From assembly GCA_951828535.1 (NCBI GenBank), contig OX639990.1, positions 2,157,300 through 2,221,299 of the forward strand: 64,000 nucleotides of DNA, given 5' to 3'. Under the pieces are notes generated by a model. The model saw nothing but the letters and a program-made list of their open reading frames with translations. It made no database searches and was not told the DNA's origin. Position 1 is the first letter of the stretch; the number at the start of each line of letters is the position of its first letter. The translations under genes and the position numbers were made by a program. Positions 24,350 to 36,391 of the stretch are shown piece by piece. This DNA is from an uncultured Candidatus Entotheonella sp. (GTDB lineage: Bacteria; Tectomicrobia; Entotheonellia; Entotheonellales; Entotheonellaceae).

Positions 24350-25633
24350 TCAAGATGAGATATTCGCCTCGTTATGCAGCGGCGCATAAATCGTCAGCAG
24401 GAGTTCTGCATCATCGATAAGCCGGTACTCCGGCTCCTTGCCTGACAAGCGCGTGCTGTTGTCCAGAATGATCGGCACACCTTCGCCCCGTTTTTCCATT
24501 ATGTTCTTGCGGTCCGTGATGAGCCAGGGGTCGTCGGGTGCCGGGCACTTCGCCAGCAGGCTGCATACGGCCTCATTGCGGGCGGACTGCCGGTAGCGGA
24601 GGCTGTCGATTGTCAACGAGTTAGCGATGGCGCCGGGGGAGTAGATTTCCAGGCGATTATCGAACAATCGCAATCGAATCTTGGAACCGTAAACCGAGTA
24701 ATCCCGGTGAGCAACGGCATTGGTAACGGCCTCAAACACGGCGGTCATGTCGTATTGCGGGCGGTCGATTCGGCCCATGGTCTTGACGGCAGCCGTCTTC
24801 ATGTTCTTGGCCACGAAGCGGCACGCTTCAACGATCTGACGATCCAATGGCCCGGATACATCTACGGCATCGAGTTGATAAGGATCCTCGCCCGAACCCG
24901 TGCGGATTTCGTCACCCCGGTAGGCAACCGCCTGCACATAGGCGTTGGGAAGCCAGCGGCGGGGCTCCTCGCTTGCCATCAACACACCGGCGACCGTCGG
25001 CCTCATTGCCCCTGCTTCATCGGCTCCCACCATGCCAAGCTTGCGCAAATAAGTGTCCCGGTCATCGTCGGAGCGCGGCGTGCGAAATCGCTGCCACAGG
25101 TCAGGCGCCAAATCCTCAACCCGCGCACTGGCGACAATTTGCTCGTCGAAGCGAATCATGCGGGTCTGGCTGCGTTGCTGGAACATTCTGGCAAGGTACT
25201 CAGTGGACATGGGCCGCTTCGATTCTGCTATACGGTGCAGGAAACCGCCGGGGCTTCGGTGCACGAACAGGCTGCGGGGGATGTCCACCTTGATAACCAT
25301 TGCCTCCACCCCTGAGCTTGAGGGCAGCGACAATCGGTCTAATACGAAGTCTTCAATTGGCGGGTCGATGGAATCCGAACATACCTCCCGGACGAGTTTG
25401 GTCACCAAGTCAAGACGACCGGCGGGAATGCCCACGATCTCGCGGGTGGCGTCCTCGACACCGAAAACAAACACGCCGCCTCGGCTGTTTGCGAATGCGG
25501 CAAAGCCGTCAGCAAGGCTGTCCCGGTGGGGGCCTATAATCCTGTTGCCGCTGAAGCGCACCTCCTTGAATTCCAGGAAGGTGCTTTCGCCGAGACGAAT
25601 TTTGTCCAGCAATTCCTTCTTGCTGTCAAACAT
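24350..25633 (-). CDS. AlbA_2 (Schlafen-type) DNA-binding / HATPase_c_4 protein
   Basis: 427 residues. The N-terminal AlbA_2 domain has ESTFLEFKEVRFSGNRI, then DGFAAFANSRGGVFVFGVED. The middle carries a GHKL-like ATPase core (AVFEAVTNAVAHRDYSVYGS; LEIYSPGAI; KRGEGVPII). Such proteins are annotated as ATP-dependent regulators or RecG-like and are common in defence islands. Its start overlaps the end of the trlF-type gene upstream by 8 bp, so the two are translated together. A regulator or partner role in the same system is inferred. Confidence 0.88.
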   Translation of the reverse strand: MFDSKKELLDKIRLGESTFLEFKEVRFSGNRIIGPHRDSLADGFAAFANSRGGVFVFGVEDATREIVGIPAGRLDLVTKLVREVCSDSIDPPIEDFVLDRLSLPSSSGVEAMVIKVDIPRSLFVHRSPGGFLHRIAESKRPMSTEYLARMFQQRSQTRMIRFDEQIVASARVEDLAPDLWQRFRTPRSDDDRDTYLRKLGMVGADEAGAMRPTVAGVLMASEEPRRWLPNAYVQAVAYRGDEIRTGSGEDPYQLDAVDVSGPLDRQIVEACRFVAKNMKTAAVKTMGRIDRPQYDMTAVFEAVTNAVAHRDYSVYGSKIRLRLFDNRLEIYSPGAIANSLTIDSLRYRQSARNEAVCSLLAKCPAPDDPWLITDRKNIMEKRGEGVPIILDNSTRLSGKEPEYRLIDDAELLLTIYAPLHNEANISS

Positions 25634-28553
25634 GAGTCGGCTCTCTCCCCAGACGACGGTAGCGGCGCTCGAACGCCTCGAGTCCGCCTTCCATCACCCG
25701 GCAAACCTCCGCTCGCATGGCTTCCTCCTGCAATGATCCCGACTGACGGATCATGCACTGCCCCTGCGCGAAATCGAGCGCGTGCAGCATCTCCGCATCC
25801 CCGTTTACCACGATATTCGGGTTGTGGGTCACGACGATAATTTGCCGCCTGAGCTTGTTCTCCCGAATCTGGCGTACAACTAGGTCATAGATCAGGTGGT
25901 TGTCCAGATCGTCCTCTGGCTGATCCAGCACCAGAGGTTCTTCCCCATGCGCCAGCAGGAAGGCCAGCATGGCTGCCGACCGTTGCCCTGCGGATGCCTG
26001 GGCAATTGGCTGAAAATCTTTGCCGTCGCCCGCGCGGCTGTACGTCACGCTCAACCCGTCATCGGGAAACCACGTCAGCAGTCTGTCGAGAAAGTCGGGG
26101 CCCTGTTCGAATTTGCGTTCGAGATAGTTGTTGAAATGCCCGCCAAAATCGCCCTGACCGGAGCAGGCCGCTGTCAGACGACATTTGAAGCCGTCGAGAC
26201 GCTGTTCCATCTGCTCACTCCGCGGCAACTCTTCTTTCGGCAAATTTGCAAGGAGTTCCGGCACCACGGCTCGGGTCGGTCGCTCATCCTCAATTGTCAG
26301 GATGTCGTCCTGGAAGCGATCGTCGAGAACATCCAACGTCTCCCGCAAGGATCGCTCAATGGCGCGCGGGTCATTGCCGTATCGATGAATTTCAATGCGC
26401 ACGAATTGATTCTGCGCCAGCGCCTTGGAAAGAAACGCATGACGAGCGACACTGATGGCGCGGCGGGCTTGCTGGACTTCCCGGAGGCGTTCCTGCGACT
26501 GCTCGACCCGCCTGTCCCGCTCGTCCCTCTCCGACTCCAGATTCTTCATTTCTCCTTCAAGTCGTTGCCGTTCCTGGACCAACTGGCCATATTGGTCCAG
26601 GTCGGAGACACCTTCCGATTCCAGCGCTTCGACCAGATTCTCATAGTTGCCGGTGGCTTGCTCCACAGAGGCTTGCCAAGAACTCTTCATCAATGCCTCA
26701 CGCTGCATTTCAACCGCCTCGCGCAGACGCTGCGCCACGTCGCACATACCCTGGGCCGCCGAATTTACGGCAGCACCTAAAGCCGTCATGAACTCGGCGA
26801 GTTGTTGGTCTTCTCGCGAAGTCTCGTCGATCAACCCATCCGGCAGGTCTTCAGTCTGAAGTTCTGCGGCCATTGCCTCAATGCGTTGCGCGGCCTTCTC
26901 CGCCGTATCCAACTGCCGATCTGCTTCCCTGCGCTGTCGGTCACGCCGCCGGTAGGCTGTCAGAATAGCGGCATGGCCCGCCTCCTCGAAGTGCCGCAGC
27001 TTGCGCTCGACATCTCGCAACGCCACTTTAAGCTGATCCTGCCGGCCCAACTTTTCGTCTAACTCCCGGATCCCCGCGCGCAACGCAAAAAACGCATTGC
27101 ACGCTTCATTCAGTTGCTCCCGGTAGGCATACACCCCAGCCGCCTCGTCGATTACCTGCAGAAGCGCCTGTTGGCTATCCCCCGCCAACTCGGCAATCTG
27201 CCCTTGGCTGAACACCCGGAGCGGAAAACGATCCGACGTGACGGTTTGCGCGGACGACGATACCCAATCCCCATCGCCGGATTCATCCTCTACGACTGTG
27301 CCGGCGCCGTCCTGTTGCCAATGCACGCGATGTCGGACGCCGTCTCGCATCACGGTCCACTGGATCTTCGTCTTGTCCGTCAAACCGCCTTCATGCATAC
27401 GGTTCAAGGGAACCCGATTGAATCGCTCGAAGGTCAGGCGAGGCCCACTACGCGCCTCCAAATGCGTCAATTCATCCTCGCGCCTTGCCGCAAGCCTCAA
27501 CGCATGGACGACCGTAGATTTACCCGTACCGCGTCCTCCGACCAGGGCATTGAGCCACGGGCTGAAGTCGAGCTTGGCCGGCCTTCCGCGTCCCATGTAC
27601 CGCGCATTGGCTATCTCAATGGACTCGATGCAATGTTTCGGCGTTGCGAAGGGATCGAACGGATCCTGCGCGTCGCTGCGGCGGATCGAAAAACCGTTGC
27701 CATCCAGTAACGCAAGGCGCAGCCCCTCGAGCGATGGCTTTGCCATTTTGACCCACGTGTAATGGGAGCCTGGGAAACGATCCCCAGCACCCCCAGTAGG
27801 GTGATGCGAATCCGATCCGAGGACGTCGCTCCAGGCCAGTTTGCGTTGCCGATAAAGATCGGGGGGTTCGGAACACGGGTCGACGACCTCCATCGCGAAC
27901 AAACCGCCAAAGTCAAGTAGTGGGGCCAGCGTGTTTCCGTTTAGTCCCCAGGCGCCTGATGATGGCTCGTCCACATGCGCAAGGATCGGAATGCCTCCGT
28001 CATTGCAGATGGCTTCGACGACGCTGAGGGGCGCCAATTCGGCTGCAACGTCACTCGCGCCCCGTTCGCCGCGATATCGGACGGCACCTACTAGCGTTGC
28101 GATGTCGACAGATGCCGAGTCGGTCTCAAGTATCCCAAGGACATGAATTCCACCACTGGCCGTGACTTCCACACCCGGAAACAAGTGCAACGGTCGGAAA
28201 TCAGGGTGCTGACCCTGTTCAAGCTCATGGAGCGCTTGCTTTAGCCTGTCGACCCACTCTCCCGAGTTGTGGTCCGTTACCGCCACACAATCCACCTCAG
28301 CACGCATGAAGTGGAGCAGCCAATCCACCGGCGTGATCTGCCTCAAGGAAGCCTGGTCTGGTCCCTTGCCATAGTCTACGGACGCTGGCGTATGCGTGTG
28401 GAAGTCGAACTTCCACCACCGTGCTCCCGGATACTGCCAACGTTGGTCTTGAACAGAGGGCATGCCGGCATCTCGACCCATTCGTTCTGGATTTACTTCA
28501 TTGCCGGAGGGCGGCAAGACTTTTGATTTTCCGGCGGATCGATGAGTGACCAT
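25626..28553 (-). CDS. TrlF-type PHP-domain / SMC-like ABC ATPase
   Basis: About 975 residues. The N-terminal PHP domain has the metal motifs FDFHTHTPAS (about 50), VTDHNSG (about 94), an AHVDEP His (about 193) and GSDSHHP (about 248). An SMC/RecN-like ATPase follows: Walker A GGRGTGKST at about 339, a coiled coil at about 460-740, signature SAGQRSAAML at about 858 and Walker B PLVLDQPEDDLDN. PHP-SMC fusions of this design are known as TrlF and as the Ppl antiphage class. The start is uncertain: TTG 28589 and later ATGs are possible. It is the first gene of a two-gene unit. Confidence 0.88.
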   Translation of the reverse strand: MVTHRSAGKSKVLPPSGNEVNPERMGRDAGMPSVQDQRWQYPGARWWKFDFHTHTPASVDYGKGPDQASLRQITPVDWLLHFMRAEVDCVAVTDHNSGEWVDRLKQALHELEQGQHPDFRPLHLFPGVEVTASGGIHVLGILETDSASVDIATLVGAVRYRGERGASDVAAELAPLSVVEAICNDGGIPILAHVDEPSSGAWGLNGNTLAPLLDFGGLFAMEVVDPCSEPPDLYRQRKLAWSDVLGSDSHHPTGGAGDRFPGSHYTWVKMAKPSLEGLRLALLDGNGFSIRRSDAQDPFDPFATPKHCIESIEIANARYMGRGRPAKLDFSPWLNALVGGRGTGKSTVVHALRLAARREDELTHLEARSGPRLTFERFNRVPLNRMHEGGLTDKTKIQWTVMRDGVRHRVHWQQDGAGTVVEDESGDGDWVSSSAQTVTSDRFPLRVFSQGQIAELAGDSQQALLQVIDEAAGVYAYREQLNEACNAFFALRAGIRELDEKLGRQDQLKVALRDVERKLRHFEEAGHAAILTAYRRRDRQRREADRQLDTAEKAAQRIEAMAAELQTEDLPDGLIDETSREDQQLAEFMTALGAAVNSAAQGMCDVAQRLREAVEMQREALMKSSWQASVEQATGNYENLVEALESEGVSDLDQYGQLVQERQRLEGEMKNLESERDERDRRVEQSQERLREVQQARRAISVARHAFLSKALAQNQFVRIEIHRYGNDPRAIERSLRETLDVLDDRFQDDILTIEDERPTRAVVPELLANLPKEELPRSEQMEQRLDGFKCRLTAACSGQGDFGGHFNNYLERKFEQGPDFLDRLLTWFPDDGLSVTYSRAGDGKDFQPIAQASAGQRSAAMLAFLLAHGEEPLVLDQPEDDLDNHLIYDLVVRQIRENKLRRQIIVVTHNPNIVVNGDAEMLHALDFAQGQCMIRQSGSLQEEAMRAEVCRVMEGGLEAFERRYRRLGREPTHV

Positions 28554-28727
28554 TTTTAACTTACTCAGATATGTGCCGTGAAGACGCAATTGGAATCGGT
28601 GTGGAGGATGAATCGATCCGGACGCTTCATCAAGCTCTTGGTGACGTCTGTGGAAACTGCCGAGCGGAATTAGACATTACCGCCATCGAAAGTGTCAAGC
28701 TGCCGTAGGAACGCGGTTCCCCCGCAG

Positions 28728-31220: not shown

Positions 31221-31276
31221 GTTCGGCTCAGGTCATAACCTGAAGGTCGTAGGTTCAAATCCTACCCCCGCAACCA
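31221..31276 (+). pseudogene. 3' fragment of a tRNA-Met (CAT) gene
   Basis: The sequence GGTCATAACCTGAAGGTCGT followed by a complete T-arm (GTAGG TTCAAAT CCTAC) and CCCCGCAACCA matches the 3' half of a tRNA-Met, including an encoded CCA. No complementary acceptor 5' strand or D-arm is present upstream, where direct-repeat sequence stands instead. Such 3' tRNA halves are typical remains of island attachment sites. A terminator follows directly. Confidence 0.75.
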
Positions 31277-32725: not shown

Positions 32726-33537
32726 GGCCTGTTCACACTATCGCAGCGCATCGAAGATGAGCGCGAAGAGGATAAAGCCCAGGAAGATCACGTCGAGCTT
32801 CTCGTAGCGACTGAAAATGCGACGAAAACCCTTCAGACGACGAAACAACCGCTCTATCTCGTTGCGGCGTTTGTATAGTTCTCGGTCGTATTCCCACGGC
32901 TCCACCCGTGTACTCAGAGGCGGTACCACCGGGGTGAAACCCAGGTCCAAGGCCAACTGCCGCGTCTCGTCGCCTTCATAGGCGCGGTCCATGACCAAGG
33001 AGCAGGACTCCTGCCATGCACCAAGACCACGCAGCAGGTCACGCCCTTGCGGGGCGTCGTGCGCCTGCCCAGGTGACAACGAAAACGTCAGCGCCGTGCG
33101 AGAATCCGCGGCAACCATATGAATCTTGGTGGTCCAGCCGCCGCGGGATTTGCCAATGGCTTGGTGACCGTTTTTTTTAACGCCCCCGTGCCATCGGGAT
33201 GCACCTTGACTGAGGTGCTGTCCATGGAGAGCACCTCAAGTTTAAGGCGCACGATCTGCTCTCGCTGCAGGTGTTCGAACACGCGGTCGAGCACGCCGTT
33301 TTTCGACCAGCGATTCATGCGGGTGTAGATGGTGTGCCAATTGCCAAAGGACTGGGGCAGGCCGCGCCATTTGCAACCATGCTCAGCGACGTACAGGATA
33401 GCGTTCAGAACATGCCGGTTGGACACCCTGACGTTGCCGCGTTGTATCGGCAGGTAGGGTGCGATGCGTTGGTACTGAGTTTCAGTGATTTCCATTCGTC
33501 AATCATAGCATGATATGCTCATTTGTGTTAACAGGCC
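32726..33537 (-). mobile_element. IS-D (IS5 family, IS427-like), 812 bp
   Basis: Terminal repeats are GGCCTGTTCACAC at the left and, read inward, GGCCTGTTAACACAAATG at the right. The target CTAG is duplicated at 32722-32725 and 33538-33541. The transposase is encoded in two frames joined at a run of eight As. The element is complete and lies within the direct-repeat-bounded island. Confidence 0.9.
32738..33495 (-). CDS. IS-D transposase (two frames, likely programmed frameshift)
   Basis: Frame 1 (33495 to about 33175) encodes the DUF4096-like N-terminus (YLPIQRGNVRVSNRHVLNAI; GCKWRGLPQSFGNWHTIYTR; LSMDSTSVKVH). Frame 2 (to 32738) encodes the DDE part (DRAYEGDETRQLALDLGF; ERLFRRLKGFRRIFSRYEK with the catalytic Glu). 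Between them lies AAAAAAAA, where the natural continuation KSRGGWTTKIH is read only after a frame change. This is the usual IS427-group design, so the split is probably programmed. Confidence 0.88.
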
Positions 33538-35757: not shown

Positions 35758-36045
35758 ATGATTCTCAGCTACCGGGACAGGAAGACAGAGCGCTTTGCCA
35801 ATGGTCAATTCGTAAGCGATTTTCAAGGCTTTGAGCAGCAAGCCGTCAAGCGACTGTCAATCCTGCATGCGGCACCGTCCCTCCAAACGTTGAGGGGCAC
35901 GCCAAGCAATCGACTGGAAGCACTCAGTGGAGACCGCCAAGGACAGTATGCCATCCGCATCAACCGGCGGTGGCGCATCTGCTTCGAATGGCCGGACGGC
36001 CAACCAGGGCCGAGCCAAGTTGAGATCGTGGATTACCATTCATGA
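35758..36045 (+). CDS. higB: HigB-type RelE/ParE-fold toxin
   Basis: 95 residues, the normal length. The sequence has the HigB pattern: RKTERFANGQFVSDF at the start, RLSILHAAPSLQTLRGTPSNRLEALSG-like middle region with the GxR...L turn, and QYAIRINRRWRICFEW at the end, which holds the RNA-cleaving basic residues. It degrades mRNA on ribosomes. The antitoxin gene follows after 13 bp, toxin first, as usual for higBA. Confidence 0.92.
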   Translation: MILSYRDRKTERFANGQFVSDFQGFEQQAVKRLSILHAAPSLQTLRGTPSNRLEALSGDRQGQYAIRINRRWRICFEWPDGQPGPSQVEIVDYHS

Positions 36046-36058
36046 GGGAGAGAAACGG

Positions 36059-36391
36059 ATGCTGAAACGAGCCGTCCATCCCGGTTTGGTGTTAAAGGAC
36101 GAATTGGCGGAACTCGGTATCACACCAACGGAATTCGCGCGTCAGATCGGTGTGCCGCCCAACCGGGTGAGCCAAATCATCAATGGCAAGCGCACCATCA
36201 CCGGCGATACGGCCCTTCGATTCGGGCACTGGTTCGGTGTTGAGCCCGAATTCTGGCTGAATCTGCAGAATCATTTTGATCTTGTGCGTGCCCGCCAGCA
36301 ATCGGGCAAGGCAGTTCGGCTTCTACCGACAAGGGCCAATCTTCCGCCTCACCCTTATGGAGAATCGGCACGGCCACTGACATACGGGTGA
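36059..36391 (+). CDS. higA: HigA-type antitoxin with an unusual C-terminal tail
   Basis: 110 residues from the ATG at 36059 with a GGGAGAG site. The helix-turn-helix domain (GITPTEFARQIGVPPNRVSQ, then INGKRTITGDTALRFGHWFG) and the FWLNLQNHFDLVRA segment are typical. The last ~15 codons (from PHPYGES) run antisense through a relic of brnA, so the native 3' end was probably replaced when the two loci were joined. It binds and represses through its HTH, and should still be functional. Confidence 0.88.
   Translation: MLKRAVHPGLVLKDELAELGITPTEFARQIGVPPNRVSQIINGKRTITGDTALRFGHWFGVEPEFWLNLQNHFDLVRARQQSGKAVRLLPTRANLPPHPYGESARPLTYG

Follow-up and report, generated by a model that had tools for sequence, protein, structure and literature searches.

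A conserved trlF-trlG gene pair with a probable defence role in an uncultured Candidatus Entotheonella genome

A 64-kb stretch of contig OX639990.1 from an uncultured Candidatus Entotheonella sp., a probable sponge symbiont, was analysed (the whole stretch is called the window below). Two adjacent minus-strand genes in it, trlF (25626..28553) and trlG (24350..25633), are a real, conserved and functional-looking two-gene module. Because the pair travels as a unit and sits inside anti-virus systems in related loci, it is likely a two-part defence or suicide switch. We consider it fairly probable that trlFG is a closely coupled two-protein module directed against phage or other foreign DNA, in which TrlF would serve as DNA-end nuclease and TrlG as cytostatic Schlafen RNase. 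The candidate two-gene defence system proposed in the initial annotation is thus supported by the wide co-occurrence of the genes and by their embedding in the defence operons of relatives.

TrlF combines a PHP metallo-phosphoesterase domain with an SMC/Rad50-type ABC ATPase carrying a coiled coil. It belongs to the TrlF family, with 590.5 bits against the NCBIfam model NF045780 (cut-off 350) and profile positions 2-944 of 944 covered. The PHP ligands (H64/H66, D106/H107, E141, H149, H205 and D260) are intact, and the ATPase motifs comprise Walker A GGRGTGKS, signature SAGQ, Walker B LVLDQPEDD and H-loop H922; both ligands and motifs are conserved in an alignment of 50 homologues. The AlphaFold2 model (mean predicted local distance difference test score, pLDDT, 87.4) has an SMC/Rad50-type head and a coiled coil, and its Foldseek matches were SMC, Rad50 and RecN, together with the SMC proteins of the defence systems Wadjet and Lamassu. 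Motifs, family score and model together bear out the PHP site, coiled coil and ABC/SMC motifs first read from this protein. The gene start was taken as the ATG at 28553, with other possible starts at TTG 28589, ATG 28481 and ATG 28463; similarity to homologues sets in at residue 49-55 when the open reading frame (ORF) is read in its longest form.

TrlG is a bacterial Schlafen. It contains SLFN_AlbA_2 (PF04326) and HATPase_c_4 (PF13749), each over the Pfam cut-off, so the AlbA_2 plus GHKL architecture assigned earlier was correct. Its AlphaFold2 model (mean pLDDT 87.6) matched 3lmm (Corynebacterium DIP2311), Schlafens 5, 11, 13 and 14, and PDK/histidine kinases in Foldseek. No C-terminal helix-turn-helix or winged helix-turn-helix (wHTH) was found in the model, in which the protein ends after the GHKL domain. 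By profile comparison with solved chains, E16 and E21 align with E206 and E211 of SLFN14, which were changed to alanine by the PDB depositors, and D61 aligns with the GVxD aspartate of SLFN14; the structure-based alignment was made without plasmid homologues. The E-x4-E...D catalytic acids of Schlafen RNases are therefore present on the AlbA_2 fold as E16, E21 and D61. They are kept in 38, 36 and 35 of the 39 members of the window subfamily, and the same positions in 14, 10 and 12 of the 14 members of the other subfamily, while 52 of 53 TrlG proteins retain E301 of the GHKL N-box and all 53 retain N305. By analogy with known Schlafens, TrlG is probably an RNase, and our best guess for its target would be tRNA.

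The two ORFs are intact, trlF being first and trlG next downstream. The 3' end of trlF overlaps the start of trlG by 8 bp (25626..25633, minus strand, ATGTTTGA), exactly as first described, and GGGGAGAGAG was found upstream of the trlG ATG. The same pairing occurs in other genomes, a co-occurrence on which the initial proposal had depended. A TrlG scan covering genomes of 84,980 species gave 41 loci, with TrlF directly upstream in 26 of them; in an unselected sample of gammaproteobacteria, TrlF was present in 20 of 369 genomes and was directly followed by TrlG in 12 of the 20. In most pairs the two genes are at most 3 nt apart or overlap by no more than 22 nt, and relatives that lack the 8-bp overlap mostly show a 1-nt gap or some other overlap within that limit. 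The initial annotation had treated the 8-bp overlap itself as the trait to follow across genomes; coupling does recur, but the exact overlap is common only to the window and a subset of close relatives (L005, L006, L009, L025 and L032), and for this reason it is close coupling, not the exact overlap, that is conserved. The TrlF and TrlG trees divide into matching subfamilies, and within the window subfamily the distances of the two proteins are strongly correlated (Mantel r 0.97 for 24 pairs and 0.87 for 16 non-redundant pairs; 0/5000 permutations). These adjacency counts and distance correlations rule out a chance neighbourhood. Compared with the sibling genome G001, a same-genus relative whose assembly is labelled 'uncultured Candidatus Entotheonella', the ratio of nonsynonymous to synonymous substitution rates over shared parts was 0.13 for TrlG, 0.18-0.32 for TrlF and 0.09-0.12 for neighbouring genes. 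Purifying selection acts on both trlF and trlG.

The pairing is widespread, but not obligatory. TrlG without TrlF was found in BREX (bacteriophage exclusion) loci, in type I restriction loci and as an orphan, and TrlF without TrlG exists as well, including Ppl and a form on Escherichia coli IncF plasmids. Since either gene can be found by itself, the 'fixed partner' of the initial annotation is too strong a term, and a strict toxin-antitoxin system is unlikely. In two loci (L003 7842-8000 and L004 7829-8008) a remnant of the TrlF C-terminus stands ahead of an intact TrlG, which indicates that TrlG outlives TrlF. In L004, TrlG and the remnant also adjoin a HEC-01A-type ATPase gene.

The genomic context in relatives points to defence. 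The pair is nested in five kinds of modification-based operon, on a single strand and in the order methylase, trlF, trlG, effector: pglX > trlF > trlG > pglZ > brxL in BREX-1 (L006, L028, L100, L103, L112), hsdM > hsdS > trlF > trlG > hsdR in type I (L045, L116), mod > trlF > trlG > res in type III (L027), DUF1156 > trlF > trlG > DUF499 (L030, L031), and methylase > trlF > trlG > GmrSD (L016, L020, L036). TrlG alone occupies the equivalent place in three BREX loci (L008, L021, L038). Of the 41 pairs with flanks, 23 lie inside or beside such operons, whereas none of 20 control regions contains such genes. Because some of the neighbourhood queries came from the counted loci themselves, a recount was made with those loci removed, which left 16 of 34 pairs with defence genes (p 1e-4); merging near-identical loci gave 13 of 28 (p 2e-4). 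This figure is only rough, because the control regions are few and partly from the same genomes; the inclusion of four counted loci (L073, L101, L105, L110) depends on phmmer matches that are weak (50-220 bits). A near-identical trlF-trlG-GmrSD block with an upstream methylase was observed in L010, L011, L012, L016, L020 and L036, which come from several proteobacteria and a bin labelled Chloroflexota. Such near-identity across distant bacteria suggests recent wide transfer.

The trlF-trlG couple was published in 2020 as part of the Photorhabdus temperature restriction operon trlR-trlF-trlG (PMC7554251). In that work growth was arrested at 36 C, transcription was temperature-induced, deletion of the operon gave tolerance, and growth-tolerant clones carried substitutions, stops or insertion sequence (IS) insertions in trlG, with the larger trlF unhit (PMC7554251). 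Sixteen listed trlG alleles against none in trlF has odds of about 5e-9 under equal targets; because all 16 listed operon hits lie in trlG, TrlG is the growth-restricting member in Photorhabdus. The window resembles this locus in having two adjacent genes in identical order, with trlF directly upstream of an AlbA_2 plus HATPase_c_4 gene (AlbA_2 at 14-128 and HATPase_c_4 at 298-365 in Photorhabdus TrlG). When the mutated residues are placed on the homologue of Yersinia plasmid pYR3, 8 of 13 are identical with one offset, and by this putative mapping Photorhabdus N335 would correspond to N353 of the window TrlG, which is invariant in both subfamilies. However, the two loci belong to different subfamilies: compared with pYR3, the nearest searchable homologue, the window TrlG is 28% and TrlF about 20% identical, and pYR3 has Q in the place of the second Schlafen acid, where the window has E. 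A tblastn search of the window with the 79-aa pYR3 gene presumed to be trlR gave a best E of 0.57, inside trlF, so no trlR was found there. The Photorhabdus locus is linked to temperature, whereas no such link is known for the window pair.

The trlFG pair and each of its halves are already known (from the Photorhabdus operon and from bacterial Schlafen RNases in BREX), and the pairing is not unreported; added here are the conserved pairing, the defence nesting in relatives and the Schlafen RNase residues in TrlG. The trlFG pair as a defence module nested in five host operon kinds was not found in the searchable papers, which covered few subscription papers and preprints, so a prior description is possible. 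A temperature-restriction operon that had lacked an explanation is here joined with Ppl-type PHP-SMC nucleases and bacterial Schlafens in one conserved unit, whose defence context in relatives is clear. The module offers a direct test of the failure of Photorhabdus to grow at 36 C and of the use of Schlafens in bacteria.

Among known systems, Ppl is a single-gene 3'-5' exonuclease of single-stranded DNA, released by depletion of nucleoside triphosphates (NTPs) and by 3' ends (PMC12904381). E. coli Ppl shares PHP and SMC ATPase with the window TrlF over the full length, and no other part of the TrlF family lies as close to Ppl as the window subfamily. Yet TrlF reached only 554 bits against the Ppl model NF042955 (cut-off 1000) and is 31.8% identical to E. 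coli Ppl, which stands alone without TrlG, whereas the window gene is coupled to trlG. The earlier view of a Ppl with an added partner is ruled out by the model cut-off, the identity and the genomic context. For at least 1017 taxa, Schlafen RNases joined to a minimal histidine kinase have been reported in the vicinity of BREX cores, as presumed backup effectors with a C-terminal wHTH, in a paper whose text makes no mention of PHP (PMC12839542). TrlG shares with these proteins the AlbA_2/Schlafen plus GHKL layout and the same catalytic pattern, and relatives of the window pair are found in similar genomic places; it differs in lacking the wHTH fusion, in being paired with TrlF and, in the window, in lying outside BREX. 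RloC is an ATPase with an anticodon nuclease triggered by DNA breaks, PrrC lies inside EcoprrI, and PARIS is likewise a guardian (PMC12707154). These three also couple an ABC-type ATPase to a nuclease with nucleotide or DNA-break triggers, and PrrC and PARIS are sited in restriction-modification or BREX operons. Their RNase, however, is of another family than the Schlafen fold of TrlG, and TrlF brings its own PHP nuclease.

By analogy with Ppl, TrlF probably binds DNA 3' ends and is kept in check by normal NTP levels; once a phage has broken DNA and depleted the nucleotides, the PHP nuclease would degrade DNA. TrlG, once switched on, would cut RNA, most likely tRNA, and halt growth, the RNase step being predicted and the arrest being genetic in Photorhabdus. 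The GHKL ATP-binding domain and TrlF might hold back TrlG or set it off, and the module as a whole would respond to infection. Such a mode of action would resemble RloC, PrrC and PARIS in its logic, with a second, DNA-directed nuclease added within the sensor. Inside BREX or restriction-modification operons the module is probably a second line, as PrrC and PARIS are, and the window copy, without an adjacent methylase, probably answers its own trigger. We speculate, with some reserve, that TrlFG is a general mobile 'guardian' of modification-based defence, which lies between the methylase and the effector in BREX, type I, type III and DUF1156/DUF499 systems and is triggered on failure of the host system; Photorhabdus temperature restriction might then be self-triggering.

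Several points weigh against a role in defence as proposed. The searchable papers report no anti-phage activity of any TrlFG pair, the sole phenotype being arrest at 36 C, and a two-gene TrlFG model was not found in PADLOC. TrlF and Ppl, on which the NTP and 3'-end sensing proposed above is modelled, share only about 32% identity, and the window trlFG stands outside any defence island. Moreover, the second catalytic E is replaced by Q in 4 of 14 Photorhabdus-type TrlG proteins, so RNase activity of TrlG may not be universal. The only published phenotype, with its temperature-induced transcription (PMC7554251), could also mean that the locus controls growth or stress and has no defence role. 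We regard this as very unlikely: the pair is nested in five kinds of defence operon, its distribution is patchy, it decays in the sibling genome and is carried on plasmids, and a misfiring defence system would likewise give temperature arrest.

It is also possible, although we think it rather doubtful, that the two proteins work after the manner of a toxin-antitoxin or PARIS couple, with TrlF keeping TrlG inactive and freeing it on infection. Tight coupling and co-inheritance, the 16 trlG alleles that mark TrlG as the growth-arresting member, and a resemblance of ATPase plus separate nuclease to AriA-AriB agree with it. Against this, BREX, restriction and orphan loci have kept TrlG with no TrlF beside it (in two there is only a TrlF remnant), and with TrlF also found alone, neither is strictly dependent on the other. 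The initial annotation left open whether the partner is a regulator or a second effector, and the effector is favoured because TrlG has Schlafen RNase residues, lacks a C-terminal helix-turn-helix, and relieves the Photorhabdus arrest when lost. It is improbable that TrlG regulates trlF, through transcription or nucleotide sensing, with TrlF the sole, Ppl-like effector. AlbA_2 domains bind nucleic acid and the BREX Schlafen-histidine kinase proteins are reported to have a wHTH (PMC12839542), but the window TrlG chain stops after the GHKL domain, its catalytic acids are conserved, and TrlG exists without TrlF and its loss has a phenotype of its own.

The window copy itself has no modification-based defence genes (methylase or effector) flanking the pair within the 64 kb, and no BREX or restriction island was found in the window. 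A search of the host genome for PglZ found none, and the closest N6 methylase lies at a distance of about 76 kb. A phage-borne system was rejected: no phage record covers more than 13% of TrlF, and distant TrlG relatives are present in phages of Gordonia and Mycobacterium. The host phylum has only five members in the genome set, and the class-level survey around G055 comprised only five genomes, too few to be useful.

The G001 locus has undergone rearrangement. Its trlG carries a frameshift, which could be an assembly error; 284 bp are deleted from its trlF, and an assembly error is less likely there. The gain, use and loss of trlFG between the host and G001 fit a defence gene. Within the G001 locus (L002 4913-10837) a partial second copy of the monooxygenase start lies before trlF, and a stretch found upstream of trlF in the window is duplicated after trlG, together with 1.5 kb of extra DNA. 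This stretch (28661..28705, minus strand; TTGACA, 18 nt, TCTAAT) is conserved as well as duplicated in G001 by blastn against L002, and is a weak candidate for the trlF promoter; a promoter consensus scan did not list it, owing to the C in the -10 element.

The genes beside the pair encode a luciferase-like monooxygenase, an HhH-GPD glycosylase and a Sir2 protein. The initial description of the pair as standing without IS nearby holds only in part: an IS5-family transposase of two overlapping ORFs (DUF4096 and DDE_Tnp_1, 32738-33495) lies 4.1 kb upstream and adjoins the lowest-GC kilobase of the window. At 31225-31276 there is the 3' half of an initiator-tRNA-like gene with a CCA end, without recognisable 5' half or ARAGORN call, whose 32-nt end is the sole copy in the genome (up to 3 mismatches); it is a pseudo-tRNA or integration scar. 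A HigB-like toxin gene overlapping a HigA-like helix-turn-helix gene is found at 35758-36391; the IS5 element and the HigBA-like pair lie 4-8 kb upstream of trlFG.

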